From Candidatus Thorarchaeota archaeon (GTDB lineage: Archaea; Asgardarchaeota; Thorarchaeia; Thorarchaeales; Thorarchaeaceae), in the NCBI GenBank assembly GCA_003345555.1, contig PRDJ01000035.1, forward strand, positions 1 to 64,000: a stretch of 64,000 nt of DNA. Direction: 5' to 3'. Both the position numbers and the translations under genes were made by a program. Below, piece by piece: positions 22,247 to 56,770 of this stretch; the first letter of the stretch is position 1; the number at the start of each line of letters is the position of its first letter. A model generated the notes under the pieces. The model searched no databases, was not told the origin of the DNA, and was given only the letters and a program-made list of their open reading frames with translations.

Positions 22247-22478
22247 ACTGGTCTAAACGCCTCCTTGCTGCTGAAGACATACATACTGCTGGGATATATG
22301 CCAGTGTTATGCACGACTGCGCATATCGTGCTTCTCTTTACAAGCAGGTGCACGTCAGAAGTGGAAGTGTTCTGAAGTTGGAGAAGTACCGAATCCTCTC
22401 TAGGGCCGAAAGAGAATATAGTCCCTTTTTGCTAGGCACAGGTGAGCAGATTCCGTACAGAAAGGATCGTTGAGTCAG

Positions 22479-23348
22479 ATGTGTGAATGGTGTTACAAAC
22501 ACGGTGCGGGTCAGAAGTGGTACTTGAACTCGAAGAACTACCTGCGTGAGACCGCACTTGAGGTCGGGGCCCATGATTACATCTTTGAGTTATGGAAGCA
22601 GTTTGACAAGGTCTATCTCCAGAGGATTTATGGTATTTCCATGAAGGGACCGGGATACAAGTTCCGGATTCCCTTGGTTGGCAGGGTTCTGAGAAGCTAC
22701 GTCAATGGATGGTTCCGTAAGGAGAGACCGGTAAAAGGTCGAAACCCGAGAAGAGCAGAAGGGCATCCAGGGCAGGTTGTGCCACTTGAAGATGCAAAGA
22801 AGATTCTGGAGCTCGCGAGTCCCATTCTCAGAGTCAATTGCGCTTGCAGGAAGATGACGCGCGGAATCAATGATCCCTGTTGCCTTGCTTTTGGTGCGCT
22901 CGCCGAGATGGTTCCCAAGCTGCCACGCTACATTCCAGATCGAGGGATGGAACCCCTTCACGTCGATGAAGCACAATCATTCGTAGAGGAGATGAATACG
23001 GCTGGGCGCATCAACACCGTCTGGTTTGGCCCCATGCCCTACATCGCTGCGCTGTGTAACTGCCAACAACCGGAATGCGCCGCCGTGAGACTCAAGACCT
23101 CCTACAATCTCCAATTCCTATACAAAGGCGAATACGTGTCCAAGGTTGATTTGTCAAAATGCGACGGTTGTCGTGCTTGTTCATCGAGATGCCAGTTCGG
23201 TGCGCTGACCTTTAGCCACTTGATGAACGGCCCGTTCATCGACGCTTGGAAATGCTATGGCTGCGGTCTATGTGCCACGGCATGTCCTCAGCATGCAATC
23301 CAGCTTGTCGAGCGTGTCTCACTTCCCGCTCTCAAGGAGGTATGGTGA
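22479..23348 (+). CDS. Cysteine-rich Fe-S protein with C-terminal dicluster ferredoxin domain
   Basis: This 289-residue protein likely carries electrons for the divergent aldehyde oxidoreductase. It starts with CEWC, has further cysteine groups in the middle (CACRK...PCC near 125-140 and CNCQQPEC around 190-197), and ends with a two-[4Fe-4S] ferredoxin module (CDGCRACSSRC and CYGCGLCATACP, about 226-270). The N-terminal 120 residues are basic and not recognised. An in-frame TTG at 22470 is a possible alternative start. Its stop TGA is immediately followed by the next ferredoxin in the same frame. Confidence 0.85.
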   Translation: MCEWCYKHGAGQKWYLNSKNYLRETALEVGAHDYIFELWKQFDKVYLQRIYGISMKGPGYKFRIPLVGRVLRSYVNGWFRKERPVKGRNPRRAEGHPGQVVPLEDAKKILELASPILRVNCACRKMTRGINDPCCLAFGALAEMVPKLPRYIPDRGMEPLHVDEAQSFVEEMNTAGRINTVWFGPMPYIAALCNCQQPECAAVRLKTSYNLQFLYKGEYVSKVDLSKCDGCRACSSRCQFGALTFSHLMNGPFIDAWKCYGCGLCATACPQHAIQLVERVSLPALKEVW

Positions 23349-23570
23349 ACGAAAACACATATCGCTGTAGACTACGGGAAATGTGGAGATCCAAGGGAGT
23401 GCAAGAAGTGCCTTCTGGCTTGCCCTTCTGCACTCTTCATTTTGTACTCCCCGGATAGAGAGAGTAACGATCCGAGCGTGTGGAGAGTAGACGTAGCGTT
23501 CACTGACCTTTGCACCCGCTGCCTAGATTGTGTGAACGCCTGTCCCAAAGGTGCCATCAGAATCAAATGA
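23349..23570 (+). CDS. Small dicluster ferredoxin with an apparent ACG start
   Basis: Directly after the TGA of the previous gene, the same frame encodes about 73 residues: THIAVDYGKCGDPREC, KCLLACP, then CTRCLDCVNACP. This is a plausible two-[4Fe-4S] ferredoxin. No ATG, GTG or TTG precedes the conserved N-terminus. The first codon after the TGA is ACG, and AAGGAGGT lies seven bases before it, the ideal distance. A single C-to-T change would give a standard ATG. So this is a non-AUG start, a recent mutation or a sequencing error. Read-through of the TGA is a less likely alternative. Confidence 0.72.
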   Translation, partial: TKTHIAVDYGKCGDPRECKKCLLACPSALFILYSPDRESNDPSVWRVDVAFTDLCTRCLDCVNACPKGAIRIK

Positions 23571-23588
23571 TGGTGCGCCAGAGAGATA

Positions 23589-24809
23589 TCAAGGCGTTGT
23601 TTGAGACTTCAGAGGAGCTCTCCTATAGAGAGCCCATGAAACGATTAGGTACAGAATTGAGGCGCCCAGTATCGCTTCAAAGAGCACCCTGATTCCCACT
23701 TCATAGAACGGTTCGAATAGAACAGGAATCAACGCGTTGCCAATGAACTGTGCTGACATGAGAAGACCTGCTAGGGCGCCGCGCTTTCCAGGTGCGAGCA
23801 TCTGGCTATAGTAAATCGAAGTAGGATATAGCATTCCTGCGGCAACCGCAACGACGAGGAGGGCAGCTGTGACACGCGGCAGACTGAGCGGATTCCCAAG
23901 GTCGTCTATACTAGTAAGAACAATGGCGGAAAGAATCAGTGTCGTTATCCCCAGTATGAGAGGAAGACGTACTCCTCTACGTTTAGTGAGCCAGCCCGCA
24001 ACGACTCCCACAACAGCGGCCACTAGGCCGGAGATCATCAGGAGATTGCCGATGACAGTGTCACTAATCAGACCCGTGAGCGCCCTCGAGGTCCAGACTA
24101 CTGTCGCAAGATATGTCTCAGCGAACATGAATCCCATGAGCATAAGCAACAGAACCACAGGTCGACGTAATTCCTGTGATACGTATGAGAGAAAGACTCT
24201 CATTCCGGAACCAACTGCCCGGGCAGTTCCTGCATTTCTGCTGAATGCAATAGCTGGCAACACAAGAAGTGTTACGAAGAACAGTGAGGCATAGAACCAA
24301 CGCCAACTGTGTGTCAGAATAATACTTGCGGCAAAAGGTCCCAATGCAACACCGATTGACCCCACGGCTCCTATTATGCCCATCTTTGTTGGGACGCTTT
24401 CTGGTGGTGTTAGATCTGTTATGAGTGCGATGGCCGCGGGATTGATGAATCCCCACCCTATGCCCATTATGATGTGTGCTCCGGCGTAGGTACTAACCGA
24501 TGTGGATGTTGCTGACATAGCCAGCCCAAGTGAGGACAGCGCCACCCCACAAAACACAACGGGCGTTCTTCCTACGACATCTGAGATAGCGCCCGAGATC
24601 AGCTGCAATATGGCAAAGGGCACCATGAATGCTGTGATGGCGACCATTACCTCACTCGGGTCCACAGCGAACTCATGCGAGAGAGAACCAAAAAGAACCA
24701 GCATACCATTCATGATGAATGGCCCAACTAATAGAAGGACATAGGCAGCACCTTCGGCCAATCCTGATCTTGGTTTCTTTTCGCAGCTTACTTGCTCTAC
24801 ATCAGACAT
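23589..24809 (-). CDS. MFS transporter (12 helices, drug/metabolite efflux type)
   Basis: This 406-residue major facilitator has about 12 predicted helices in two halves. The loop after helix 2 carries SDVVGRTPVVFCG, the usual MFS loop 2-3 signature in a DHA1-like form, and the later loop has GWLTKRRGVRLP. The start at 24809 has GGTGA nine bases upstream; an ATG three codons earlier is possible. It lies 33 bases after the Fe-S subunit of the FAD/Fe-S operon, so it may move the substrate or product of that enzyme. Substrate is unknown. Confidence 0.85.
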   Translation of the reverse strand: MSDVEQVSCEKKPRSGLAEGAAYVLLLVGPFIMNGMLVLFGSLSHEFAVDPSEVMVAITAFMVPFAILQLISGAISDVVGRTPVVFCGVALSSLGLAMSATSTSVSTYAGAHIIMGIGWGFINPAAIALITDLTPPESVPTKMGIIGAVGSIGVALGPFAASIILTHSWRWFYASLFFVTLLVLPAIAFSRNAGTARAVGSGMRVFLSYVSQELRRPVVLLLMLMGFMFAETYLATVVWTSRALTGLISDTVIGNLLMISGLVAAVVGVVAGWLTKRRGVRLPLILGITTLILSAIVLTSIDDLGNPLSLPRVTAALLVVAVAAGMLYPTSIYYSQMLAPGKRGALAGLLMSAQFIGNALIPVLFEPFYEVGIRVLFEAILGASILYLIVSWALYRRAPLKSQTTP

Positions 24810-24842
24810 ACCTGCCATTCACCTCTCTCATTGATTCTGCTC

Positions 24843-25979
24843 TCAAGTCGCTAAGTCGACAAGTTCGACGATGTCTAGGACCTTGGCCACTTGGCCTTGG
24901 TTTGCATCGCTAAGATTCCTTTTGCAGAATGGGCATGCAGAGACAAGTATGTCCGCATTCACGGCCCGAGCGTGCCCAAGGCGAATCGCCGCCGTGGCTT
25001 GCGCAAGTTCGGGAAACGATGACTTAACCCCGCCGCCCGCACCGCAGCACCAAGCGTTCTTTTCGTTCGGATGCATTTCAACAAATTCGACGGGCAGTAC
25101 CCCAAGCATTTGTCTGGGCTCTTCGTAGACACCCATGTGTCTACCCAAATGGCAAGGGTCGTGGTATGTCACGCGACCAATAGATCCTTGTTGAGTGACT
25201 TTCAGCTTCTTTTCGGTAAGCAGTTCATTTACGAGTTGAACAGAGTGGAGCAGGTCGATATCTAGATCGAAGCCAAGTTTCTTGTAGTCTTTCGAAAGCG
25301 TTCGATAGCAGCCTGCGCACGATGTGATGACTCTCTCTGCACCCGCTTTTTCAAAGGCCTCTAGATTGTGTTCTGCGGCTTGCCGTGCAAAAGCCCTTTG
25401 TCCGGTCCTGAGAAGCGGAGACCCGCAGCAGTATTCATCCACGACCGTGAAGTTGATGCCTGCTTTCTTGAGAACGGAAAGCGTCGCATCACGGACGCTC
25501 GTTTCCTTGTAGTTTGAAGTGCAGCCCAGAAAGAGCACTGTATCTGCCTTGTCGGGAAGATTGAGCTGCTGCACGATCTCACGATTGTGGTGGGTGGCTT
25601 CATACGGATTGTGCTTTCGTGAGATGCTCTCAGCAATAGCACGGTGTGGAGGCAATGGTCCTAGCTTATCAACCACCAGACTTCGCAGTTCTTCAATCAT
25701 CTCAACGATGTGTTCTCGATGTGGGGCCATGCATTGAATCTGACAGGCTCCGCACTCCGTGCAGGCAAAAGTGGGCTTGAGCAACGATTCCTGCCAGTCT
25801 ATCTCACCAGTGGTCAATGCTCTGGCAATCGATATCCTTCCGGATGCAAAGTAGCTCTCAAACCTGTACTGTTCTCCTGATGGACAAGACGGACCGTAGT
25901 CCCGAAAGATGTACTTACAGGTGCCGCACCGGTTACATCGGTGCAACCAATCCGCTATCACTGATTCGTATGGACTCAC
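24843..25979 (-). CDS. Fe-S oxidoreductase subunit with two CCG domains (GlcF/HdrD-like)
   Basis: This 378-residue protein accepts electrons from the FAD-linked subunit encoded just upstream. It has an N-terminal ferredoxin-like region (CNRCGTC and CTECGACQIQC) followed by two cysteine-rich CCG domains (EYCCGSPLL with CAGC; WCCGAGGG with CPFC), as in glycolate oxidase GlcF and heterodisulfide reductase HdrD. The GTG start overlaps the upstream TGA (GTGA), and GGAGGTG sits six bases before it, showing tight translational coupling. Longer frame extensions lie inside the upstream gene. Confidence 0.9.
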   Translation of the reverse strand: MSPYESVIADWLHRCNRCGTCKYIFRDYGPSCPSGEQYRFESYFASGRISIARALTTGEIDWQESLLKPTFACTECGACQIQCMAPHREHIVEMIEELRSLVVDKLGPLPPHRAIAESISRKHNPYEATHHNREIVQQLNLPDKADTVLFLGCTSNYKETSVRDATLSVLKKAGINFTVVDEYCCGSPLLRTGQRAFARQAAEHNLEAFEKAGAERVITSCAGCYRTLSKDYKKLGFDLDIDLLHSVQLVNELLTEKKLKVTQQGSIGRVTYHDPCHLGRHMGVYEEPRQMLGVLPVEFVEMHPNEKNAWCCGAGGGVKSSFPELAQATAAIRLGHARAVNADILVSACPFCKRNLSDANQGQVAKVLDIVELVDLAT

Positions 25980-27400
25980 AGTCCCCACCTCCCAGGGTTC
26001 ATTATCCCATTGGGGTCGAGGGTCTTGCGGATTCTCTTGAGCAGTTCCACGAATCCGGGATCTGCATTCTGCTGTAGCTTCTTCGCGGCCCACACGGGTG
26101 TCTTGTATGGAAGTGCCTTGAGGCTGAGAGCAAAATCGAGGAGCTCTTCGTTGCAGTGCCTCACTTTCTCAACTGTTGCATCGTCTTTTGGGAATCTGAT
26201 GATGAACTTGAATTCGCCAAAATGCATGCTGTTCATGGGCTTCAAGTAGGCCATCAGCTCAAACCCGTACTTCTCAACAATCTTTCTTCCTCCGGACAAT
26301 GCTTCTCCCCAGTGTTTGGGATGGATGTATGTGCCAACCCAAGTCAATCCATCGTATTCTGTGAGCACTTTGAACGCATCAGATGGAAAGTCCACCCATG
26401 ACTTGGCTTGGTCACCCAGCATTCTGGAGATAGCGTCCCAATCAACTAGAAGCTGGCGGCTTTCGTTCTTTCTTGCATCTTCCACGAATGTTTCAATCAG
26501 CTCGTATTTCGCGTCTGCTTCCTTCTCGATATTGCCAGAAAGAGTGAGCAGAGTCCCATAGTCGGGCTCTCCTCCATATACCTGCACGGGGGGTGAGACG
26601 CCGAGCAGCATTTTGACAATCGAAAGGGACATGCAGTCGGCGTCGTCGATAAGCTGCGCTCTAGCTATCCGCTTCAACAGCTCTGTAGTGGGCACCTCTC
26701 CAAATGTGAAGAGGGCCGCGTGTCTTGTGAATTGCTTCTTCGGCCAAAGCTGAACTGCAATCTTTGTGACGAAGCCGCTCATCCCTTGCCACCCACTGAA
26801 GAGACCTACAAGATCTGGAAGAGGATACCTCCCGAACCAATTGCCATCGCCCATGATTGCTGACCCTGCTCGCACAATCTCGCCCGTAGGAAGAATCGCC
26901 TCGAGACCGTTGATGAAGTCCCCCATTGCTCCGCGCATTGTCGAAAGGTCGCAGAGTCCTTGGAGCAGGGCGTTCGCCAGCACGGATGTGTAGGGTGGGG
27001 CCAAGGGATAGGTGTACGTCAGAGACGGGTTGTGCTCGTCAAGATATTTCCGGAGATGGCCGAAGGTCACGCCGGGTTCAACGACGGCATACATGGCTTC
27101 GTCATCAACTTCGACAATCTTGTTCATGCGCTTGAGGTCCACGGTGACTGCATCATCTACTTGAGGGATTGTGAGGCCGCCGATATTCTGCCCTGTCACA
27201 AATGGGACAAGTGGGACCCTGTCCTTGTTCGCAATCCGTACGATCTGCTGCAACTGTTGGACCGATTCGGGCATGACGACCATTGCAGGCCGCTTGGGCG
27301 GGTTTTCAGTCATGTCGAACGAATAGACGTACTTCTCGGCAAGACCATCGGATACGTACTGTTCACCTACTATCGAGATTAGTTTCTGCTTCAGGCTCAC
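25976..27400 (-). CDS. FAD-linked oxidase subunit (GlcD / vanillyl-alcohol-oxidase family)
   Basis: This 474-residue flavoenzyme has an N-terminal FAD-binding domain (PESVQQLQQIVRIAN and the PP-loop region PFVTGQNIGGL) and a C-terminal substrate domain ending DPNGIMNPGRW, the signature of 2-hydroxyacid dehydrogenases and alkyl-DHAP synthase relatives. Its electrons probably pass to the adjacent CCG protein. Two GTG starts are possible: 27409, overlapping the upstream stop, and 27400, with GGTGA five bases upstream, which I prefer. The substrate is unknown: a hydroxyacid or a lipid-like alcohol, given the SCP2 neighbour. Confidence 0.88.
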   Translation of the reverse strand: MSLKQKLISIVGEQYVSDGLAEKYVYSFDMTENPPKRPAMVVMPESVQQLQQIVRIANKDRVPLVPFVTGQNIGGLTIPQVDDAVTVDLKRMNKIVEVDDEAMYAVVEPGVTFGHLRKYLDEHNPSLTYTYPLAPPYTSVLANALLQGLCDLSTMRGAMGDFINGLEAILPTGEIVRAGSAIMGDGNWFGRYPLPDLVGLFSGWQGMSGFVTKIAVQLWPKKQFTRHAALFTFGEVPTTELLKRIARAQLIDDADCMSLSIVKMLLGVSPPVQVYGGEPDYGTLLTLSGNIEKEADAKYELIETFVEDARKNESRQLLVDWDAISRMLGDQAKSWVDFPSDAFKVLTEYDGLTWVGTYIHPKHWGEALSGGRKIVEKYGFELMAYLKPMNSMHFGEFKFIIRFPKDDATVEKVRHCNEELLDFALSLKALPYKTPVWAAKKLQQNADPGFVELLKRIRKTLDPNGIMNPGRWGL

Positions 27401-27405
27401 CGTAG

Positions 27406-27765
27406 TCACCTCTTGAGAGAAGATGAAATCAACCTGTAGAATCTCAGAGTGGCACGTGGGTGTCTCAGAATCCCTTTGACCTTCAGACCTCCGTTCAAGA
27501 GGGCTCTGATTGGCGAGGTTTTCCCTTTCACGAGTTCGATAATTGTGCTCAGCTTGGCATTCACTCGGAGCGTCGGATGTGGGATGTCCCCGTGCTCCAC
27601 TCTCATTCCTTTGTCAAACCGAATGGTCACTGGGTAATAGTCGGTTTCAAGGACAACGACCATCTTCCATTTGGCGACGATGTCTTTGAAATCAGGTCGT
27701 GCAAGCGGCTTTGATGTAAGTATCGCGAGAATGTTACCGATGAAGTCCTTTGGCTGCTCTAGCAT
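27406..27765 (-). CDS. SCP2-like sterol/lipid-carrier domain protein
   Basis: This 119-residue protein shows the SCP2 pattern: a strand pair (MVVVLETDYYPVTIRF), DIPHPTLRVNAKLSTIIELVKGK, then ALLNGGLKVKG and a C-terminal helix. SCP2 folds bind long-chain acyl or isoprenoid ligands. The stop overlaps the start of the FAD-linked oxidase gene, so these two and the CCG protein form a coupled three-gene operon. This suggests a hydrophobic substrate is presented to the oxidase. Confidence 0.78.
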   Translation of the reverse strand: MLEQPKDFIGNILAILTSKPLARPDFKDIVAKWKMVVVLETDYYPVTIRFDKGMRVEHGDIPHPTLRVNAKLSTIIELVKGKTSPIRALLNGGLKVKGILRHPRATLRFYRLISSSLKR

Positions 27766-27910: not shown

Positions 27911-30900
27911 CTAGAGCAGGTCTCCCAGCACGGCTTGGACCTTCTCCAGCTCTTCGTAGCTTGAGGGGTCAATGAACAAACATGCCCTGACAACTCTCTC
28001 GTCTCCGGGCATTAGCCAACACCTTGAGTCCATGCCACCACACATTGAGAGCTCACTTGTACACACAGCAAGCGAGCTAGGTTCCGCACCCGCCCAGAGA
28101 ACTCCAAGTCGTTCTGGACTATCAGGGCTGTCACCCCTTGTGAACATCATTGAATTCGTGTCTGGTGTGACCGCCGCTGGTACGAGCAAGTCCCTGAGGT
28201 CCAGGGTATTTCCTCCCCACCGTGTATGCAGGGTTGTGCCTTCATAGACACCATTCCATCCTGGATCCACGAAGAGACTAGGCATGAAAGAGATTGGCGC
28301 ATTGGTCGGATTCCTGATGAGCCAGTTGACCAGAAGGATTGGGCTGCCTGGGGCCGTCAGATACTGGAGCCTAAACTGCACTCCTCGGCACACCAATTGG
28401 AGGTGTCCGGTCCACGATACCTCTACGCCCGTCCATAACCCACCTTCTTGACACGGTTTCGCATCCATCTTTTCCTTGTTAGTTTGGGCCTTGAAGAGGT
28501 CGTCGCTCGTTAGCTCATCCCACACTATGGGCTGAATCCCACCGTAGTAGTTGTCGATGAATTGCTTGGGTGCTGGCGTGGGGAACGCAGAACACAGTAG
28601 TTCAGTAGAACGAGTGTTCTTGAGAGAGAACAAACAGCCGCCGTAATCCGGTGATACAGCAAAACTGAACACACCGTTATTCACTCTGAGAACTCTAAGT
28701 CCCTTCTCAGTCCCTTCCGAGATCTTCACGTCTGATCCTGTTGTGCCGAGCTGGAGTAGCGTGAATTGCCTGGAGAATTCCATGGGTGTCCGCACACGGA
28801 TGAGTCCATGACCGACTGAGAACCCGACGTTCGCTGAATCGGATGGGGTCAATCTCAACTTATATGAATGATTACCTTCTATGACCACTTCCTCCAGGGG
28901 AGTACTGTCGTGCTCCAGTTCTGGCGGGCCTGATTGCTTGACCTCACCGTGCCACCCTTCAGGGGCATCCACTTCTATCCTGCCTACGAGCGGTGCATTT
29001 ACCATGTTTTGAATATCGAATTCCATCAGTGCAGGCTGACGGTAAGGTATGATCAGCGGTTTGTTCTTGATTGCTATCATTGGTATGGTTGGCTGATGTG
29101 CGAGGATTTGCTGTGCGTTTTCATACTCACCCCTTATGTCTGCTCGCCATGTCCTCTGTATCGAGCGCCAATCAGAAGAAGCGGCGATACACCATACCTC
29201 AGACACGCATCGTGTCTCTTTTCCTTCGAGCCTGAAGGGCCTGTACATGATGCGTTGTATCTGTCCTCCTGCGAGTTGGATCGAGTCCACACCATCTGGC
29301 TTCCAGACTTGACCTGATGCGCCGAGGGGACTGACCGTGGCGATCCACTGCTCTGAAAAAGCACTGGGCTCTGATGGGACGGATGGATATCCCATGAACA
29401 AATTGCCCGTTGGTGACTCTACAATCCCTGTGGCTAGCGGGATGAACGTGTGGTCAAAGCTGATTGATATGCCTCCTCCCCTGCCGTTGAGTCTAAGCTG
29501 GAACTCATGGCTCTCTTCACTTGTGTTCGTTACCCATACCTCATGCTTGAGCTGCGACGAAGAGTTGAGTGCAATCCAGCGGTCCTCTATTACGAGTGGT
29601 CTCTCGGGATGGCGCGCATGGGCAGAGACGATGACTCCGGATTCGGTACTGCGGATGTTGACTTCTCTTTCAGAAAAGCGGAACGGGCTTAGTCCGAAAG
29701 GCGGACCTATCTCAGTTGATAGGCTAACCGGATTCATGGCACCAGCGTAGCTACTGTATAGCGAGAGGATTCCCCCTTCCCGTAGAAGCCGCGCAGTGTA
29801 TTGCGGACCAACAATCAGCACCTGTCGTTGACGGTCGTCCTCGCCTGTGGAAATCCTTCCGTCCTGCAGACAGAATAGCGGTATGCGATATCTGCCCGTT
29901 TTGAGTTCTGTCTTTTGCCTGCTTTCGTCTTCATACGAAAGAACCATGTAAGCCCAAAGGTCGTGCGTACCGGGGCTTAGTTCTGCGCCCGTGCGTACCG
30001 TGACAGTAGCTCCTCCCAGACCATCTGGAGCAAGCTCAAGATCGCTTTCCGGAGGCGCAATTGTAATATGAGGACCGGGCTTCTCGAACATGAGCTTGCC
30101 AGTTAGGTTCCTCGAGGAGTTGTTGATCACAGTGATAGGTAAGGTAGTCTTCCCGGATTGTAGTACACGACATTCTCTCCATCTCGTCTGAATCTCGGCG
30201 ACCGGCTTCACTCTCAGCCCCGTACGCAGCGTCGACTCCTGTCCGTTAATCTTCAACTTCGTAACAATCGAAGGCGCCTTGATGTACTGGCGGAATGCAG
30301 GAGCATCCGGTGAAAGGTTGAAGGGAACGGACCATGTGAATGTTTTCTTGGCCTTTACTCGGGCGGTAGTCTGAGGGTTTGAGTCAAAATGCAGACTCTT
30401 GAAGCCGTCCAAAGCAACGCTGAGGTCTATGTCCTTAGTTGTCCCGTTCTCGAACTTGAGTTCGTAGACCGAGGGGATTCCACAAAGGGTGAGATGTTGG
30501 CTCACGAGTGCCTTCACCACAAGGCGGCCTTCGGCCGTCACTCGCTCTATGCCAGTGATAGCTCTAGCCAAACGATCTACAGTGACGTGCAGACTATTCT
30601 TGCCGTTTTCGAAGCCATACGGGTAGATTGCCATTCCATGTTCTGTGTAGTCGTCTGGAGCTTGATTCAGCTCTCTTCGCTGCATGCCGTACCATGCACT
30701 TCGGTCGGGGTTCGTGGTAAAGAAGGGAGTGCACAAGGGGTGTCGGAGAATCTCGGGAATATAGCTCTGCATTTCCACTCCCTGACCCTCCGGGTTCCAC
30801 ATGAGACCCATCTTCTTGTAGAGCGGTACTGCTCTAAGGTTTCCTGCCCAGGTGTTCAGGTCGACTCTGGTATACCCTTTCTGTATGGCGATTTCAAAGC

Positions 30901-31225
30901 ATTTCAGTAGAAGGTGCTTTCCCACTTTCTTGTTCAACGCTTCAGGGCTCACGCCCAGGGTTCCGACATAGGCAGCTTCGGTATCCCTCCAGTGTGAAAG
31001 AAGGGTCACTGACCCGACGGGGCGGTGGGTTGTCTTGTCAATTGCTATGAGAATCGCAAGAGCTCGCATTGACTCGTATTGCTTGACGACTCTTTGAGCT
31101 GTGAACGGCACTCCCTGAGTGAAGCCTCCCAGCCACAGCGGATCCCAGCTGTTATACATTTCCGCTAGCGATTCTGCGTCTTCAGGCCTGTATTCTCGAA
31201 TCTCTGTTGTTAGTTCCTCGGGCAT
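27911..31225 (-). CDS. Giant fusion: N-terminal GNAT acetyltransferase plus carbohydrate-enzyme-like beta domains
   Basis: This 1104-residue cytosolic protein has no signal peptide. Residues about 5-165 form a GNAT domain (REYRPEDAESLAEMY, GTLGVSPEALNKKVGKHLL, LYKKMGL). Residues about 180-700 are beta-rich, with an NEW3/CARDB-like Ig segment (LPITVINNSS..., ELAPDGLGGATVTV). A second Ig-like segment lies near 730-840. Residues about 850-1090 start VNNGVFSFAVSPDYGGCLFSL, like the first strands of galactose-mutarotase-type supersandwich domains. No catalytic pair is identified. It is divergent from a membrane histidine kinase. GAGGTGG precedes the ATG. Confidence 0.85.
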   Translation of the reverse strand: MPEELTTEIREYRPEDAESLAEMYNSWDPLWLGGFTQGVPFTAQRVVKQYESMRALAILIAIDKTTHRPVGSVTLLSHWRDTEAAYVGTLGVSPEALNKKVGKHLLLKCFEIAIQKGYTRVDLNTWAGNLRAVPLYKKMGLMWNPEGQGVEMQSYIPEILRHPLCTPFFTTNPDRSAWYGMQRRELNQAPDDYTEHGMAIYPYGFENGKNSLHVTVDRLARAITGIERVTAEGRLVVKALVSQHLTLCGIPSVYELKFENGTTKDIDLSVALDGFKSLHFDSNPQTTARVKAKKTFTWSVPFNLSPDAPAFRQYIKAPSIVTKLKINGQESTLRTGLRVKPVAEIQTRWRECRVLQSGKTTLPITVINNSSRNLTGKLMFEKPGPHITIAPPESDLELAPDGLGGATVTVRTGAELSPGTHDLWAYMVLSYEDESRQKTELKTGRYRIPLFCLQDGRISTGEDDRQRQVLIVGPQYTARLLREGGILSLYSSYAGAMNPVSLSTEIGPPFGLSPFRFSEREVNIRSTESGVIVSAHARHPERPLVIEDRWIALNSSSQLKHEVWVTNTSEESHEFQLRLNGRGGGISISFDHTFIPLATGIVESPTGNLFMGYPSVPSEPSAFSEQWIATVSPLGASGQVWKPDGVDSIQLAGGQIQRIMYRPFRLEGKETRCVSEVWCIAASSDWRSIQRTWRADIRGEYENAQQILAHQPTIPMIAIKNKPLIIPYRQPALMEFDIQNMVNAPLVGRIEVDAPEGWHGEVKQSGPPELEHDSTPLEEVVIEGNHSYKLRLTPSDSANVGFSVGHGLIRVRTPMEFSRQFTLLQLGTTGSDVKISEGTEKGLRVLRVNNGVFSFAVSPDYGGCLFSLKNTRSTELLCSAFPTPAPKQFIDNYYGGIQPIVWDELTSDDLFKAQTNKEKMDAKPCQEGGLWTGVEVSWTGHLQLVCRGVQFRLQYLTAPGSPILLVNWLIRNPTNAPISFMPSLFVDPGWNGVYEGTTLHTRWGGNTLDLRDLLVPAAVTPDTNSMMFTRGDSPDSPERLGVLWAGAEPSSLAVCTSELSMCGGMDSRCWLMPGDERVVRACLFIDPSSYEELEKVQAVLGDLL

Positions 31226-31275
31226 TTATGAACCCACCTCTGTAGGATTATGATTTCCTGCCAATTGCACTCCCT

Positions 31276-31373: not shown

Positions 31374-34340
31374 ATGACGGGCGAACCATTGACTGCACTG
31401 GTCTTAAGACGGTTCGCAAAGGAAGTCAGTGTCGTTGCTGTCATTGCAGCCGGATTCTATCTTGCTACTGTGTCTGCTTGGGATAGCTACCAAACGAACG
31501 TTGATTATCATGCCGTAGTGTCATTTCTCGCGATTTCGTGTGCGTCCGCCTCACTCTTCCAATCAAGGGAAAACCGCTCGCCTCTGACTGTTCTGTTGCT
31601 TTCGGCCTTTCTCTTCTCGGCCATTGTACACATGATTGGTTCCGCCGAGCATCTAGTTGGCGGCCCTTCTCTTATTCCGACTGAGACCCCCATAGACACT
31701 TGCCTCGAGTTGGTTGAGCTGGGCCTTTTTGGAATCACAATCCTTGCTGCTGTGGGTCTTGAACGCAGAGTCTCGGGAGCCTCCAGACATGCCCTCTACT
31801 CTCTTGCATTCTCGGTCACGTTTCTATCCTCTCTAGTGTTTACTGTGATCTGCTGGTTTGTTTGGTCTGGAGTTTGGCAAGTTCTCGTTGTGAGTTACTT
31901 GGCCGCACCGGTGGCTGTTATTACAATGACGCTATCTGGAGTGGTGCTCTTCAGGCGTGTCCCTTACCCGCATGTCACTGACAGATATCGCTTGTTTTTT
32001 GGTCCGGCTCTTTTTGCGCTTTCTGTGGTCCCGTTGATATTCTCGCTGGGGGAAGTAAGGGATCTGTGGGTCCTCTCAGCATTCCTGCAGATGGGCGCAT
32101 TCTTTATCCTATACTTGGCAATGGTGATGCCAGTTCTAAGGGGAATGAATCTTACACGGAGACGAGCCTATTCTATTGCCTACTCGATTTCACTTCTCGT
32201 AGTCGTGCCCTTCTTGGTAACGATATTAGTGATGGCACTTGCGCCAGGATGGACGTTGTTCGATTTTGGAGCATACGCGACATCGCAGATCGGAATTGCA
32301 GTAGTCTTTTGCGTGATGGCCCAACTCCTGTTGTTGTACTCAAGGAGGAGGCCGGATTGGGGCCATAATCCAATCATACTGCTTTTCCTTACCCAGGCGT
32401 TTGTTGAGTTAGTAGGGCTTCTGCTTACCGCAATCACGCCCATAGGAGCTACGTGGTCCTATGTGCCATACATTATAGGCAGTGGAACCGTAACAATCGG
32501 TCTCTTCTTAGCCATAAGGTGGACCACCAAGCCACCTGCACGAGAGAACCCAAGCGGTTCTTGGGTTCTTGCCTGTCTTGTACTAGTCATGCTCCTTTGC
32601 GCTATTGGAGCCGGAGTGGCATGGCTCGTTTTGATACCATATCCTTGGCTATCAGGTAGTCCCGTGGGGTCTGTGATTCTGCTGACCACGAACCTGGTCA
32701 ACGTCTTCGGATTCCTCTATCTCATCTTGATGCTACTAAAAACCTCAAAGACATTGTTTCCCGTGGAAACGAGAGCAGTCGGCTTCCTATCACTATGGAT
32801 TGGGCCGAACATTCTCAGGGCAACATTCCAGGCTTGGTCCGGGGGGTGGTGGGTTTCGGAGTTCATTCTGCTTCTGGGGATGCTAGCTGGTCCAGCCCTT
32901 CTCGGAGCGATGTACATGGAATCGTTTGCTCAGGCGGAAGAATCTCGAAAGAAGGCCACACTCTATGGGGACATACTGGTGCACGATATTGGCAACTATC
33001 ACCAAGCCATACTTAATGCTCTGGAGCTGCTTGAAACCCCAGGTCTTCCTTCGGACATCAGCGAACGGGCAAGGTCAGAAGCTCTTCTTGCCCTAGCTCA
33101 GGCCTCGCAGCTTGCTGGCAACGTGAGACAACTTGCAAGAGCCGATGTGTCTCGAAGAATGGAGCTGGCTCCTGTCGATCTAGTCAGTTGCATCACAGAC
33201 GCCATGAATCAGGCGGCGGCAAATGCTCCAGAACTGGAATCTCACCTTCTCTTCAATCACAATGAACGGTTCTTCGTTGATGCGAACAGCCTTCTCACGG
33301 ATTTGTTTGTCAATCTTTTCCGCAATGCAGCCCAGCATTCTCCCGCCCGAAAGCGAATCGATGTCGAAATTACGCCTACGGCTTTGCGGAGCAAGGATGC
33401 ATGGTCAGTTCGCATATGTGACTATGGCAGTGGTATAGATCCAGAAACAAAAAAGAGGCTATTCAGTCGGTTCATGGAAGGTGCATCCGGCACCGGTCTT
33501 GGCTTGTCAGTAGTGCGGACGCTGACAGAGTTGTTTGAAGGGCAAATCGTTGTAGAGGACAGGGTGCTTGGTTCATATCGAGAAGGATCCGTTTTCACCA
33601 TTACGTTGCCCGCCTCTGTTTCCGCGGCACTTCTCGGGATCAGCATGAGAGGTGGCCTCGAAAGAGCCATGCATGCGGCAATAACGGGACTGTACCCGAT
33701 CATAATTGTGGGGCAAACAAACCAGGTCCCGTTTGCGATTAGTTTCCTCAAAGAGATTGCGTCTCACTTGAAGGAAGTTCAAGCAGGTTACGAGAGCCCA
33801 CTTTCGACTCAATCTCTAGGCAAGTTTGAGATTACTGGTACGACGCAATTGGTGGACAGCAACCTTCCCTCTGCCTTCTTAGTCATTGACTTGACGAGAC
33901 AGCACAGTGAGGGTGGCGCAGCATGCAGGTATTTCTCTCGGATTCTCGAGAAGACACGAGTAGCATCTTATCGCTCTCTGCTGTCGATGATTGACAGAGA
34001 GATTCCTAAGATAGTGAATGCTGCAACGGAGCTTGCACGAATTCTCTCTCTTGACCGGGAGAGCCGCGATCCACATCTGGCCGTCTGGAAGGGCAAGTTT
34101 AACGATGACGAGAAGGATCTGGTCTATGATATCGTCTTAGGGCGAACACACTTAGGCCACGTTCTCAGAGAAGCCGTCAGACGCAATCCATCCTCGGTCG
34201 TAGCAGGCGCTGATGAACGGTTGATTCTTGTGGAAGGCAGAGTGCTGCCCCCTTCTGAGCTGGGACCAAATGAAGCAAGGGACATCGAGAAGAACCTGAC
34301 TGCCGTTCTTGGTATCATCGGGTCTGAAGTGCCTTCCTAG
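31374..34340 (+). CDS. Membrane histidine kinase with a large polytopic sensor and an unknown C-terminal domain
   Basis: This 988-residue protein has about 14 hydrophobic segments over residues 1-525. A HisKA-like helix with HDIGN follows (phospho-acceptor candidate His537), then a HATPase domain with an N-box around Asn651 (NLFRNAAQHSP), DYGSGI, and GTGLGLSVV. The last 230 residues (about 755-988) are an extra soluble domain (PIIIVGQTNQVPF, PSAFLVIDLTRQ) that I do not recognise. No response regulator is adjacent. A leaderless start is likely. Confidence 0.88.
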   Translation: MTGEPLTALVLRRFAKEVSVVAVIAAGFYLATVSAWDSYQTNVDYHAVVSFLAISCASASLFQSRENRSPLTVLLLSAFLFSAIVHMIGSAEHLVGGPSLIPTETPIDTCLELVELGLFGITILAAVGLERRVSGASRHALYSLAFSVTFLSSLVFTVICWFVWSGVWQVLVVSYLAAPVAVITMTLSGVVLFRRVPYPHVTDRYRLFFGPALFALSVVPLIFSLGEVRDLWVLSAFLQMGAFFILYLAMVMPVLRGMNLTRRRAYSIAYSISLLVVVPFLVTILVMALAPGWTLFDFGAYATSQIGIAVVFCVMAQLLLLYSRRRPDWGHNPIILLFLTQAFVELVGLLLTAITPIGATWSYVPYIIGSGTVTIGLFLAIRWTTKPPARENPSGSWVLACLVLVMLLCAIGAGVAWLVLIPYPWLSGSPVGSVILLTTNLVNVFGFLYLILMLLKTSKTLFPVETRAVGFLSLWIGPNILRATFQAWSGGWWVSEFILLLGMLAGPALLGAMYMESFAQAEESRKKATLYGDILVHDIGNYHQAILNALELLETPGLPSDISERARSEALLALAQASQLAGNVRQLARADVSRRMELAPVDLVSCITDAMNQAAANAPELESHLLFNHNERFFVDANSLLTDLFVNLFRNAAQHSPARKRIDVEITPTALRSKDAWSVRICDYGSGIDPETKKRLFSRFMEGASGTGLGLSVVRTLTELFEGQIVVEDRVLGSYREGSVFTITLPASVSAALLGISMRGGLERAMHAAITGLYPIIIVGQTNQVPFAISFLKEIASHLKEVQAGYESPLSTQSLGKFEITGTTQLVDSNLPSAFLVIDLTRQHSEGGAACRYFSRILEKTRVASYRSLLSMIDREIPKIVNAATELARILSLDRESRDPHLAVWKGKFNDDEKDLVYDIVLGRTHLGHVLREAVRRNPSSVVAGADERLILVEGRVLPPSELGPNEARDIEKNLTAVLGIIGSEVPS

Positions 34341-34721
34341 TCGAGTACTCTCTGCCACCGGTCGAAAGAATGTGCACCGGACTCGGTTTCTTTTTCCACA
34401 ATCAGACAAAGAAAACGAGTGCACGTTTGGACTTCTTTGCAGCAAAGGCTGCTGTGACTCCGTGTCACTGGAAGCCACCGCAACCATTATTGGCATCGAG
34501 TGACATGAGCAATCCGCAACGTCCGCTCTTCTTTTCAAAAGATAGGACGGTCGTGGGGAAGTGATTCCACGTGACTTGGCCATCTCGGTGTTTGTCTGGT
34601 ATCGGCTCCGCCATCGGCAATGAGCAGTCTCCGAGCCGGGGGTACTGCCAAGGTAGGTTCACTTCGCTGCCATCAAGGGACAGCAACAGTTATTGACCCC
34701 AAGAACTGTCTCAGTTCAGAG
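34341..34721. other. 381-base gap, 3' end of kinase and upstream region of oxidoreductase
   Basis: A T-rich GGTTTCTTTTTCC (about 34385-34397) 45 bases after the kinase stop is a likely terminator. The remainder holds only short frames with no ribosome-binding site. A TTATTG-like stretch around 34690 may be the promoter of the following gene. Confidence 0.4.
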
Positions 34722-37115
34722 ATGCCTGCGAAGAAGTACTACACAGCGTGCTCACTGAACTGCCCAGACATATGCGCGTTCGTGGTTCAAGTAGAGGGCG
34801 GTCGCATTGTCAGACTTGAGGGTGACAGGAACCATCCATACACATTGGGCAGATGCTGTCCAAAGGGTTATGCCCATGTGCTCAGAATGTATTCGCCCGA
34901 CAGGATATTGTACCCTCAGCGGCGTCAGGCTGACGGTACCTTCAAGAGAATCGCTTGGAATGATGCGCTCGACGAGATTGCTGTCGATATTGACGATGCT
35001 CGCAGGAAGTTCGGTGCGCAGTCTGTGGGCATATACTGCGGCTCGGGAAATGATGGGCTAGCCCCTAAGTATGCCAGCAGATTTGCGAACACGCTTGGCT
35101 GCAGAATGATTCCGGGGATTGTCGAAATCTGTTTCGAAGGTGCGTACGAGGGTGCTCGGTTCAATGTCGGCCCTTTTCCTCCTCACGAGCTAAGCGACTG
35201 GGCGAACTCGCGATGTATTGTGGTATGGGGTACGAACAAGTTCGAATCCAGCATTCACTCGAAGAGAGTCATCAAAGAAGCGACCGATCACGGCGCGAGA
35301 CTGATTGTCATAGACCCTCGCAAGACTCCACTCGCAAAGATAGCTGACATCTACACAACCATTAGACCAGGGACTGACGGAGCACTTGCTCTTGGAATTG
35401 CGAATGAGATAATCAAGAGAGACCTGTATGATCACGAGTTTGTCGATAGATACGTTGTCGGCTTCGAGGAGTACAAGCGCAGAGTGGCTGAATACGACAA
35501 GAGGACCGTGAGCGAGATAACTTGGGTGGATGCCAACACAATTGAAGCCATAGCTCACACATTTGCCGTTCACGGACCCGGTCTCTTAATGACAGCTCCT
35601 GCTGGGATGAATCACTATACGAATGGAACTTGGGCCGCGAGGGCAGTGCATAGTCTTCTTGCAATATGCGGCTACTTGGGTGTTTCAGGAGGCGGTTTTC
35701 AGTATCTCTCATCCGATCGCGGTCCCTTCCAAAGCTCTTCGATTACGCTTGCTGACATGCTTCCAAGTTCAGTCAGACCTGTTGTCGAGTCGGGAACGCA
35801 TATTCCGGAATACGTGCTGAGTCATGAGGAATCACCTCTCAAGGTGTTCATCATTCAGGCGGCAAGTCCTATTACTCAGTGGCCGAATACGAAGAAGACT
35901 AGGGCGGCACTTGAGCGAATTCCTCTCAAGGTCTGTATCGATATCGAGATGACCGACACAGCCCGGTTGTGTGACATCGTCCTCCCCGCGACAACATTGT
36001 TCGAACATCATAACTTAATGCACAGCGAACTTCACAGGATTGTCCAATATGCACCGAAGATTGTGGAGCCACCGGGCGAGGCAAGGCATGAGCTGGAAAT
36101 CTGGAAAGGAATCGCAGAGAAGCTCGGGCTTGGCAAGTTCTTCCGACTAACAGAGCTTGATGCGATAAAGCTTGCACTGGGAGGTCATGATTGTGAAGGG
36201 ATTACGCTCGATGAACTTAAGCGGCATCCGGGCGGCATGAGAACTAGGAGTCCGGCTATCCCATTCGCAGATCGCCACTTTCTCACGCCATCAGGCAAAG
36301 TCGAGCTGTATTCCAAAACGTTGGCGAATTTGGGCTATGACCCTTTGCCGTACCACCAGGAGCCAGCTGAAAGCCCTGTATCCACGCCTGAGATTTTCAG
36401 AAACTACCCACTAATCATGATTTCTGGTAGGCTACGGAACCGATTGCACTCACAGTACACTACCGTGGAAGTCGGAGCTGAGGCCAAGGCCTATTCTGAA
36501 TGTACAACTTGTCAGAAGTGTGTCAAAGACTGCAAGGACGAGGCAATATCCCTACAGTCACCCAGCATCGAGATGATTCGCCGGGTTTCTAGCGAGAATC
36601 CAGAGACGCGTGCCAAGATGCGTGAAAAGCTAAGTGAGAGTGTGAAAGGACTTGCCATCACTGGCTCAGAAATAGTGATAGCTATTCCCAACAGCATCAC
36701 TGGACTCCAAGTCCCCATATGGGACCCGGTCAAGTGCATAGGGTGCAGAGAGTGTAATCTGGACATCTGTCCTTTCAAGGTCGTGACGGAACCAATTAGA
36801 ATGCCCTCGATGCTCCAGACCCCTACGCATCGAACGTTCCTGAGGATGAACCCGGTTGCTGCAGAGCGGCTCGGCCTCTCTGATGGAGACTCAGTCCGCG
36901 TGGAATCCATCAGAGGGGCAATCGAGGGTATCCAGCTTGAATTGACAGAAGACATCGATTCCAGGGTCGTGTGGGCATCCGACGGTTGGTGGGAGAGAGA
37001 CGGCAACATTAACCTCCTGACCGATGACAAACACACGGCGTTCGGACACACGCCGGGCTTCAACTCGGTTCTTGTGCGAGTCTCTAGGGTCGAGCACGGT
37101 GCACGTCAGCTCTAG
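34722..37115 (+). CDS. Molybdopterin oxidoreductase (DMSO reductase family) with an inserted two-cluster ferredoxin segment
   Basis: This 797-residue catalytic subunit uses bis-MGD and Fe-S clusters. The N-terminal cluster ligands are Cys10, Cys14, Cys18 and Cys45 or Cys46 (CCPKG). A metal-ligand candidate is Cys137 in VEICFEGAY. The MopB_CT domain is split: after ISGRLRNRLHSQYTT there are about 110 extra residues with Cys594/597/600/604 and Cys672/675/678/683, then the domain resumes at NPVAAERLGLSDGD. The substrate cannot be deduced; it is not obviously a formate, nitrate or arsenate enzyme. The ATG at 34722 is chosen because the conserved sequence begins there. Confidence 0.88.
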   Translation: MPAKKYYTACSLNCPDICAFVVQVEGGRIVRLEGDRNHPYTLGRCCPKGYAHVLRMYSPDRILYPQRRQADGTFKRIAWNDALDEIAVDIDDARRKFGAQSVGIYCGSGNDGLAPKYASRFANTLGCRMIPGIVEICFEGAYEGARFNVGPFPPHELSDWANSRCIVVWGTNKFESSIHSKRVIKEATDHGARLIVIDPRKTPLAKIADIYTTIRPGTDGALALGIANEIIKRDLYDHEFVDRYVVGFEEYKRRVAEYDKRTVSEITWVDANTIEAIAHTFAVHGPGLLMTAPAGMNHYTNGTWAARAVHSLLAICGYLGVSGGGFQYLSSDRGPFQSSSITLADMLPSSVRPVVESGTHIPEYVLSHEESPLKVFIIQAASPITQWPNTKKTRAALERIPLKVCIDIEMTDTARLCDIVLPATTLFEHHNLMHSELHRIVQYAPKIVEPPGEARHELEIWKGIAEKLGLGKFFRLTELDAIKLALGGHDCEGITLDELKRHPGGMRTRSPAIPFADRHFLTPSGKVELYSKTLANLGYDPLPYHQEPAESPVSTPEIFRNYPLIMISGRLRNRLHSQYTTVEVGAEAKAYSECTTCQKCVKDCKDEAISLQSPSIEMIRRVSSENPETRAKMREKLSESVKGLAITGSEIVIAIPNSITGLQVPIWDPVKCIGCRECNLDICPFKVVTEPIRMPSMLQTPTHRTFLRMNPVAAERLGLSDGDSVRVESIRGAIEGIQLELTEDIDSRVVWASDGWWERDGNINLLTDDKHTAFGHTPGFNSVLVRVSRVEHGARQL

Positions 37116-37145: not shown

Positions 37146-38420
37146 CTATGACCAGAATGGAACTATGATGAACATGTAGACAGTTGCAGTTGCAAGGTGT
37201 ATCAGACCCACCGTCATAGCCAGCTTTATGAATTCGGCCCATGAAATATGACTCTCATTCTCCTCGGCCAATGAGACAACGTACATGTTGGGTGCATCAC
37301 CAAAGGGTATTGTATAACCTCCCATGTTCACACCGGCCACGAGTGATGTTGCGACAATGGGGCTTCCTCCAGGGAATTCCGCGGCCACCGGGGCCATCAA
37401 TGCACCAACTGCAGTCGTATCTAGGATCCCTATTGCAAAGCCTGGTACCCATATGAAGACGAAAGCAGCAATGTACATGTTGCCACCGACAAGAGCAACC
37501 AATCCACCCACTAGGTCGGTGACAACGTTCGTGACCGACAGAGACGCGACGAGACCCAGAAGCCCAACCACAAAGAAAACAGTTTCCCAAGATAACTGCT
37601 GAAGGAGGTCCTTCGCTCTGTCGAATGATATCACCAGCAGTGCGGAGGCAACAAGAACCGCGACCATGGCCGATTCATTCGGGACAAGGATAAGCCCTGC
37701 CATGAGAACGCCCAAGGTGAGTATCGAGAGGTAGAAGTCAAAGCGCGACTTGATCATTACTCTTGGGTCAACTTGGAAGAGTTCGCTTGTCTCGTCGAAC
37801 TTGCCCGGCACCAAGACATCCTTGTAGTAGTTTAGCAGAAACACAATTGTCACAAGCAATAGAATCACTGATAGAGGCATGAGGATGACGAACATTGACC
37901 CAACATCGAGATTGGCGAGGCGAACAATCAGTAAGTTCGGGATGCTACCAATAGGTGTCGGGAGGGAGCCTAGGTCTGCCACTATGATTTCTCCGATTAA
38001 GAATGGCCTGAAATCGATTCCGAGACCACGACAAATCTCAACCGTGAACGTGGCCATTATGATGATTGTCGGGAGAGGAGGAATGAAAGGTGACATGACA
38101 AAAACAATGGTCATGAACACGAGGAAGACTTTGCGAGGGTCGCCTCTCGTACGTTTCGCCAGAATAAGGGCCGTATACTGAAACATGCCGGAGGAACCCA
38201 CGACCGATATTATGATCATCATTGCCATGACAAACAGTATCGTATCCCAGTTCATGGCATTCAGCATCTCAACGAATCCATACCCACCCACTGCATACAA
38301 CACAGCCGCTGCGAGACCCATCGAGAAGAGCACTACTGCCGTGTCGTCGAATTTCTCGATTAACAGCACTACGAGTGTGACAATGAATATAATCAGACAA
38401 ATAATACCTGCAATCTCCAA
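37146..38420 (-). CDS. ArsB/NhaD-like ion transporter, paralog 1
   Basis: This 424-residue membrane protein with about 11-12 helices belongs to the ion transporter (IT) superfamily that includes ArsB arsenite pumps, NhaD antiporters and the P protein. Characteristic loops are FDDTAV near 25, DFRPFLIGEIIVADLGSLPTPIGSIPN near 140-165, and ILDTTAVGALMAP near 310. It begins at TTG, with AAGGAG ten bases upstream. It lies tail to tail with the molybdopterin enzyme. A close paralog follows upstream in tandem. Substrate is unknown. Confidence 0.85.
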   Translation of the reverse strand: MEIAGIICLIIFIVTLVVLLIEKFDDTAVVLFSMGLAAAVLYAVGGYGFVEMLNAMNWDTILFVMAMMIIISVVGSSGMFQYTALILAKRTRGDPRKVFLVFMTIVFVMSPFIPPLPTIIIMATFTVEICRGLGIDFRPFLIGEIIVADLGSLPTPIGSIPNLLIVRLANLDVGSMFVILMPLSVILLLVTIVFLLNYYKDVLVPGKFDETSELFQVDPRVMIKSRFDFYLSILTLGVLMAGLILVPNESAMVAVLVASALLVISFDRAKDLLQQLSWETVFFVVGLLGLVASLSVTNVVTDLVGGLVALVGGNMYIAAFVFIWVPGFAIGILDTTAVGALMAPVAAEFPGGSPIVATSLVAGVNMGGYTIPFGDAPNMYVVSLAEENESHISWAEFIKLAMTVGLIHLATATVYMFIIVPFWS

Positions 38421-38648: not shown

Positions 38649-39920
38649 TCAAACCAGCGCGGCTACCGCAAAAAGATAGGCTGTCGATATTGCCAGATGG
38701 ACCAACCCGAGCGGCGTGACGGCTTTCGTGAAATCCATCCATGAAATCGGCCCACGGTTCTTCTCGGCTAAGTCCCGAAGATACATGTTAGGGGCATCTC
38801 CAAACGGGATGACATACACTGAGAAGTTCAATCCGGCAACCATTGAGATGGGCACTATTCTGTTCAACGATGCGAACTCCACACTCATGGGCGCAAGAAA
38901 GGCTGCTATAGGGATAGTGTCAAACGCAGACATTACAAATCCGGGCAGCCATATCATCACCAAGATGGCGATGAATACGTTGTTGCCCACGACGGCAGTC
39001 ATTGCTGCCACGAGATCTGTGGAGACGCCTGTCACTTGCAGTGCTGCGACAATTCCGAATAGGCCCACAATGAAAAAGACCGTGTTCCAAGACAGCTGGT
39101 TCAACAGAACCTTAGCTCTCTGGAACGAAATCACCAGCAGTCCTCCGGCAACAACGAGAGCCACGGTCACAGACTCTGTAGGGACGAGTACCAGTCCTGT
39201 TATCAGTACTGCAAGCGCAATAGCTGAGACAAAAAAGTCGAGTCTCGAGCGTATCATGAGTCTTGGCTCTATATCAAAGAGATGGCTGGCTGCAGCGCCT
39301 GGAAGCTGTGCGAAGACCTGTCGGTAGTACCTGAGGAAGTACCAAATTGTCACTCCCAGAAGAAGTAATGACAATGGGAACAGAGTGACGAACATGAGGC
39401 CGATGTTCATTTCGGTGAGGGACACGACAATCATGTTTGGAATTGATCCTATCGGACTTGGTATGGAGGCAGAGTTAGCTACAACAGCCTCTGAGAGCAA
39501 GTATGGTCTGAAATCGATTCCAAGGGAGTTGCATACTTCCGCGGTGAAGGCACCTATTATCAAAATGGTCGGCAGGGGTTGCAGCACGAGCGATACTACA
39601 AATACAAACCCCATGAGAACCATGAATAATCTCCTTGGCTCCCCTCGGGTCCAGCGAGCAAGAACGAGGGCCATATACTGAAACATGCCCGAAGAACCTA
39701 GGACGGATATGATGATCATCATCGCCGCTATGAAAAGAACGGTGTCCCAGTAGATACTACCTAGCATGGCTGTGAAAGCTATGTTGTTGAAGGTATAAAG
39801 CACCAGAGCACATAGTCCCAACGAGAAAAGTGCAACAGCTGTTTCATCAAGTCTGCCAAGCAGTATGACCAGTAAAGTCCCGACGAATATAATCAGGCAG
39901 ATTATCCCGGCTATGTCCAT
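38649..39920 (-). CDS. ArsB/NhaD-like ion transporter, paralog 2
   Basis: This 423-residue paralog of the gene just downstream has the same layout (LDETAV, DFRPYLLSEAVVANSASIPSPIGSIPN, AFDTIPIAAFLAP). The ATG at 39920 matches the start of the paralogs (MDIAGII) and is preferred over a GTG three codons upstream. A TATA-like ATTTATT element at 39989-39999 could serve this gene and the divergent peptidase. The 228-base gap to the next paralog contains nothing I recognise. Confidence 0.85.
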   Translation of the reverse strand: MDIAGIICLIIFVGTLLVILLGRLDETAVALFSLGLCALVLYTFNNIAFTAMLGSIYWDTVLFIAAMMIIISVLGSSGMFQYMALVLARWTRGEPRRLFMVLMGFVFVVSLVLQPLPTILIIGAFTAEVCNSLGIDFRPYLLSEAVVANSASIPSPIGSIPNMIVVSLTEMNIGLMFVTLFPLSLLLLGVTIWYFLRYYRQVFAQLPGAAASHLFDIEPRLMIRSRLDFFVSAIALAVLITGLVLVPTESVTVALVVAGGLLVISFQRAKVLLNQLSWNTVFFIVGLFGIVAALQVTGVSTDLVAAMTAVVGNNVFIAILVMIWLPGFVMSAFDTIPIAAFLAPMSVEFASLNRIVPISMVAGLNFSVYVIPFGDAPNMYLRDLAEKNRGPISWMDFTKAVTPLGLVHLAISTAYLFAVAALV

Positions 39921-39988
39921 GTCAATCACGTTTCAACTCGTGGTACTACGGAGAGCTGTTTGTGGCTGGAGCCGTCAGGAAGTAATCG

Positions 39989-56523: not shown

Positions 56524-56770
56524 AGGATGCATTCCTCGTTCTGTGCTCTTGTGAATGGCCTTGACAGTGTGTCCCAGTCAGGATGCGGAGTATGGCAAGC
56601 TATGCAGATGGGTTCACCCTATTAACTTCCGCGGATGCAATTCGTACTGAGCTGTTCTTCTCCAGAGCTTGAAGCAATATCAGTTCGTCCCACCAGCGTC
56701 AGTGAAAGCTGTCATCGAGCTCATGCGGGCAAGAGAGATATGCCGCTTCTTGTGCAACTGACCATGCAAG

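Follow-up and report, generated by a model that had tools for sequence, protein, structure and literature searches.

The region analysed here, referred to as the window, is a stretch of 64,000 nucleotides from a Candidatus Thorarchaeota genome. On its minus strand, positions 27911-31225 hold an open reading frame of 1104 codons that starts with an ATG at the 31225 end and encodes a protein of 1104 residues. The following features were located (families A, B and C are defined below):

27911..31225, minus strand: whole gene, encoding GNAT, three Ig-like and two supersandwich domains (open reading frame; full-length relatives)
31235..31240, minus strand: Shine-Dalgarno-like GAGGTG, nine bases upstream of the ATG (sequence)
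30731..31225, minus strand: GNAT domain, residues 1-165 (Pfam; conservation, with 51 of its 165 columns reaching at least 80% across families A, B and C)
30920..30937, minus strand: atypical acetyl-CoA pyrophosphate loop, residues 97-102, LNKKVG (alignment counts)
30818..30841, minus strand: NLRAVPLY, residues 129-136, with invariant Asn129 and Tyr136, the usual GNAT general acid position (55 of 55 aligned sequences)
30200..30730, minus strand: linker and first Ig-like domain, residues 166-342 (FixG_C Pfam match at 253-307; profile match to 343-456)
29858..30199, minus strand: second Ig-like domain, residues 343-456, repeat 1 (model pLDDT about 90; profile match to 713-830)
29090..29857, minus strand: first predicted supersandwich, residues 457-712, repeat 1 (model, PDB fold matches; profile match to 831-1104)
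28736..29089, minus strand: third Ig-like domain, residues 713-830, repeat 2 (profile match; weak NPCBM_assoc/NEW3 matches in two paralogues)
27914..28735, minus strand: second predicted supersandwich, residues 831-1104, repeat 2 (homologous to repeat 1 by profile comparison; its own model region is of low confidence)

In the 1104-residue protein, Pfam recognised GNAT at residues 37-140 (PF00583, Acetyltransf_1, E 3.9e-13) and, weakly, the Ig-like family FixG_C at 253-307, and no family beyond these two; NCBIfam gave solely GNAT-type matches far under the cut-off. The remainder is predicted to be almost entirely beta and has no glycoside hydrolase (GH) family match in Pfam. A first-pass annotation, made from the sequence letters, had placed a GNAT domain at about 5-165, followed by roughly 900 beta-rich residues, and both assignments hold.

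The beta part contains a tandem duplication of an Ig-like domain plus a beta domain of about 260 residues (343-712 and 713-1104). Profiles of the two repeats, built from 36 sequences, align over 328 columns with a probability of 97.1 and a score of 86.3, against at most 19.5 for 40 column shuffles and 21.1 for a reversed profile. The constituent domains match one by one: supersandwich 457-712 with 831-1104 (score 57.9, shuffles at most 20.0), Ig-like domain 343-456 with 713-830 (31.6, at most 16.4) and the Ig-like domain in 166-342 with 343-456 (37.9, at most 15.6), while unrelated domain pairs score at shuffle level. From these matches follows the layout of a GNAT domain, one Ig-like domain and two successive units of Ig-like domain and supersandwich. 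The two Ig/NEW3-like segments and single C-terminal supersandwich described at first are thus present, with the counts corrected to three and two, respectively.

No signal peptide or transmembrane segment was found by hydropathy, the highest 19-residue mean being 1.36. This supports a soluble and, as had been expected from the missing signal peptide, cytosolic protein. The fusion itself is confirmed as genuine. The window's source genome is a draft in 82 contigs, and the frame might therefore be suspected to be an assembly artefact or the product of a recent joining of genes; an assembly join had been named as a possible refutation. We regard this as refuted: full-length relatives of 37-65% identity exist in many independent Asgard MAGs and on a finished-like contig of 4.9 Mb (G105), and a paralogous family with the same domain layout in the same genome and a homologue in Cytobacillus are also present.

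Family distribution and gene neighbourhood

Full-length relatives include proteins of Thorarchaeota OWC3 (65% identity), Hermodarchaeum yapensis (42%) and a Lokiarchaeota-labelled MAG (38%). Matches are present in 32 of 59 related genomes and in 82 of 228 genomes of the phylum, so that the search for the same architecture in other Asgard genomes, proposed at first pass, was successful. Full-length matches among the 59 relatives all bear the GNAT domain, and no beta-only protein was evident there. In a tree of 52 sequences the window gene belongs to family A (support 100), to which group C is related. The paralogous family B is kept apart, and the window's own genome carries a copy of it (G000:C1:77150-80032). 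A bacterial homologue, WP_233811912.1 (1026 residues, annotated 'GNAT family N-acetyltransferase'), was found on a Cytobacillus spongiae plasmid by a search that covered plasmids. It is 26% identical to the window protein over 62% of the query (E 2e-25), and a long branch (3.2) leaves its position in the tree uncertain.

The genes define a widespread Asgard family of two or three ancient paralogous groups, often with two copies per genome. No description of a GNAT joined to such beta domains was found in open-access papers. The architecture had been called new; given a conserved Asgard family and a bacterial homologue already annotated as GNAT, it is new solely in being uncharacterised, and it is built from known parts. 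Broken copies occur as well, one of family A in G018 (L050:8196-11689, split into two frames) and one of family B in G011 (L070:7293-10622, with one interrupting TAA). Other Asgard families hold divergent GNAT-plus-beta proteins: L092:8533-11220 and L093:6999-9644 (about 890 residues) match the family only in the GNAT, and L091:7595-10036 is cut by a contig end.

The divergent neighbour of the window gene is, as first noted, a membrane histidine kinase (31374-34340, HATPase_c E 6.5e-20), in which about 240 residues past the HATPase domain have no Pfam match. Its conservation beside the gene, proposed as a check, is confined to the window and a same-genus genome, plus a 33%-identical homologue on the gene's other side in L089, and we rejected an obligate partnership.

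A molybdopterin oxidoreductase (34620-37115 in the window) is the commoner neighbour. It lies divergently upstream, directly or past one or two genes, in ten of the loci examined, all from one taxonomic family (window, L042, L044, L045, L047, L049, L050, L052, L089 and L090). Among the relatives searched, six genomes contain the oxidoreductase with no family A member found (G005, G020, G022, G028, G030, G033) and nine the reverse, and in G006 and G025 the two are on different contigs. An obligate partnership is weakened by these cases; since the two genes are often apart, their link may be positional. The oxidoreductase belongs to the formate-dehydrogenase/DMSO-reductase family, has extra 4Fe-4S motifs near its C-terminus and is 66-76% identical in related genera, being far better conserved than the adjoining GNAT protein. 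In oxidoreductase matches three TGA codons were flagged; they appear to fall a little beyond the open reading frames found, and we therefore claim no selenocysteine.

Downstream, an SCP2, GlcD-like and CCG-Fe-S set is complete in five loci (window, L040, L046, L089, L090). In the window it forms an apparent operon (22470-27765) of SCP2, GlcD-like FAD oxidase, CCG/4Fe-4S protein and MFS transporter, partly conserved in several genera. Three CitMHS/ArsB-like anion transporter paralogues are encoded at 37146-38420, 38649-39929 and 55240-56532. No obvious glycan-processing gene is found among the neighbours.

Family B genes mostly reside in a conserved cluster (14-17 of 20 loci, including L057, L059, L061, L062, L063, L065, L066, L067, L069, L071 and L072) with two multi-pass membrane proteins devoid of Pfam matches, an ArsR-type regulator, a single-TM envelope protein with a LiaF-like C-terminus (Pfam match below cut-off) and a divergent TPR protein. 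This hints at an envelope-related role for family B, not necessarily for family A. At the family B copy of the window's genome (L054:8064-14563) the cluster is absent apart from a nearby TPR gene. That copy is followed by a 484-residue protein with no Pfam match, a D-Ala-D-Ala-ligase-like ATP-grasp protein and a GNAT, in the same order as in same-genus L055.

The GNAT domain and its CoA loop

The PF00583 match (50.1 bits, cut-off 20.7) marks a domain common to all 21 aligned family A members. It is the best-conserved part of the protein: across families A, B and C, 31% of its columns reach at least 80% conservation, as against 10% for residues 166-342 and 2-5% for the beta domains that follow. 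Thr125, Trp126, Asn129 and Tyr136 are invariant in 55 of 55 aligned sequences, so that the general-acid Tyr of motif B and its preceding Asn are retained in all groups. A profile search of the PDB gave, as closest solved GNATs, proteins that are unassigned or of polyamine/PaiA types, not sugar acetyltransferases.

The pyrophosphate loop departs from the GNAT consensus Q/R-x-x-G-x-G/A (PMC4964394). Family A reads L-x-K-K-V-G, with Leu/Ile for Q/R and Lys/Arg for the first Gly in all 21 sequences and the final Gly retained. All members of families A and C, and also the Cytobacillus homologue, have Lys/Arg at the position of the first Gly, whereas the family B loop is canonical. Changes at two consensus positions in every family A member could mean that the GNAT is a pseudo-enzyme, all the more so because loss of the motif in human O-GlcNAcase goes with loss of AcCoA binding (PMC3919268). 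We consider this unlikely, if worth keeping in mind: MtAAC(2')-Ic, ScHpa2 and HpPseH are active despite atypical P-loops (PMC4964394), Asn129 and Tyr136 are invariant in this best-conserved domain, and a paralogous family has the canonical loop. Taken together, the invariant Asn/Tyr pair and the active GNATs with atypical loops make catalytic activity likely, as judged from the alignments. The family offers a clear case for deciding whether a GNAT can be active when lysine takes the position of the conserved P-loop glycine.

Fold and predicted role of the beta modules

PDB sequence and profile searches matched the GNAT part alone, and searches of a viral fold library, viral contigs and phages yielded nothing useful. 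A model of the whole protein, from a four-row alignment, was poor (pLDDT 59.5), with the GNAT of low confidence near the active site, and its fold search returned just many-Ig-domain chains at TM about 0.1, which is uninformative. Repeat 1 modelled alone reached pLDDT 79.3 and pTM 0.76. In the PDB this model is matched best by beta-galactosidases (E 7e-8), and the first 50 also include GH38 mannosidase, the YidC periplasmic domain, alpha-galactosidase, Slr1438 and a putative Bacillus subtilis galactose mutarotase. The TM-scores, 0.3-0.5 by length, are modest, and generic Ig-fold proteins are among the matches; therefore the fold class is well supported, the specific family is not. At this level, the model supports a galactose mutarotase-like supersandwich fold for the first supersandwich, and by profile match the second shares it. 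The beta part matched no known acetyltransferase-associated family with assigned function; such a match had been named as a refutation of the first reading.

Mutarotases use a His/Glu set. If a supersandwich were an active mutarotase or related sugar enzyme, as its resemblance to putative galactose mutarotases might suggest, the protein would be bifunctional, with a conserved catalytic His. No His in residues 166-1104 is common to families A, B and C, and within family A only His539 is conserved, which renders this idea highly improbable. Neither was a catalytic barrel found by Pfam or predicted secondary structure (a TIM barrel with two catalytic Glu, as in GH2 beta-galactosidase). In LacZ and GH38, supersandwich-type modules assist a separate catalytic domain. 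With no catalytic barrel and no conserved His pair, the beta part therefore probably binds or holds the acceptor.

Only fold resemblance suggests what this acceptor might be. Since the corresponding modules of LacZ and GH38 only assist, a mutarotase-like His pair is missing and few side chains are common to all families, the first-pass proposal that the beta part may bind a glycan or glycolipid for acetylation is a tentative one; with so few shared polar and aromatic residues in the beta domains, a common sugar site is not evident. The chain may instead serve as a scaffold for protein binding, bringing the GNAT to a protein complex for protein acetylation. Some family B Ig-like segments weakly match ASH and Cep192 type domains, the YidC periplasmic supersandwich is an instance of the fold outside carbohydrate enzymes, and the closest solved GNATs are not sugar acetyltransferases. 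The strongest fold matches are nevertheless carbohydrate enzymes, even though the modules are not themselves catalytic there, and we rate protein acetylation as an improbable alternative.

The reading we favour, and hold at about even confidence, is that of a soluble cytosolic acyl-CoA-dependent N-acyltransferase, in which the catalytic GNAT and a chain of non-catalytic beta modules, predicted to hold the acceptor, form one permanent fusion. The GNAT would act with acyl-CoA, and the chain (one Ig-like domain, then two units of Ig-like domain and supersandwich) would recognise a large acceptor and keep it beside the GNAT site; the acceptor would most likely contain carbohydrate and less likely be a protein. 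Against this speak the family A CoA loop, which is off consensus, the modest TM-scores, the low model confidence around the GNAT active site, the scarcity of beta-domain residues common to all families and the lack of an obvious glycan-processing neighbour. A narrower version is doubtful: a putative cytosolic acetyltransferase of Asgard archaea for glycans or glycolipid headgroups, in which the two LacZ-like units clamp the acceptor and present it to a GNAT whose CoA loop is basic and off consensus. If true, such a clamp would be a way of recognising substrates that is new for GNATs. The family combines an acetyltransferase with tandem modules of carbohydrate-enzyme type inside the cell, and its acceptor could reveal a cytosolic glycan, lipid or protein modification in the archaea closest to eukaryotes.

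Comparison with known systems

The window protein agrees with the GNAT superfamily (PF00583) in its Pfam match, motif order and the motif B Asn and Tyr, and differs in its CoA loop (LxKKVG against Q/RxxGxG/A) and in 940 further residues of beta domains. WP_233811912.1 shares the GNAT and a similar beta part; unlike the window protein it is bacterial, and it is very divergent and uncharacterised.

With domains 4-5 of LacZ (GH2 beta-galactosidase), the best PDB fold matches, the repeat unit shares the order of an Ig-like domain followed by a supersandwich, and comparable supersandwiches occur in the C-terminal part of GH38, the YidC periplasmic domain and galactose mutarotase-like proteins. As differences, no TIM barrel was found in the window protein, its unit is tandemly duplicated and sequence similarity is not detectable.

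That GNATs are normally stand-alone, as first stated, is too strong, because Eis, MshD and human O-GlcNAcase are multidomain (PMC4964394, PMC3919268). Human O-GlcNAcase (GH84 with a C-terminal GNAT-like domain) has its GNAT at the opposite end and a GH84 barrel that the window protein lacks, and homology outside the GNAT is not evident. It is nevertheless similar in uniting carbohydrate-enzyme type and GNAT-type domains in one cytosolic protein with a P-loop off consensus (PMC3919268). Eis possesses a second GNAT and a sterol-carrier-like domain and no beta sandwiches, whereas Pfam finds one GNAT and no SCP2 domain in the window protein, the SCP2 protein of the window being a separate downstream gene (27406-27765). 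The two are alike in joining a GNAT catalytic domain to added non-GNAT domains, which in Eis shape the acceptor site (PMC4964394).
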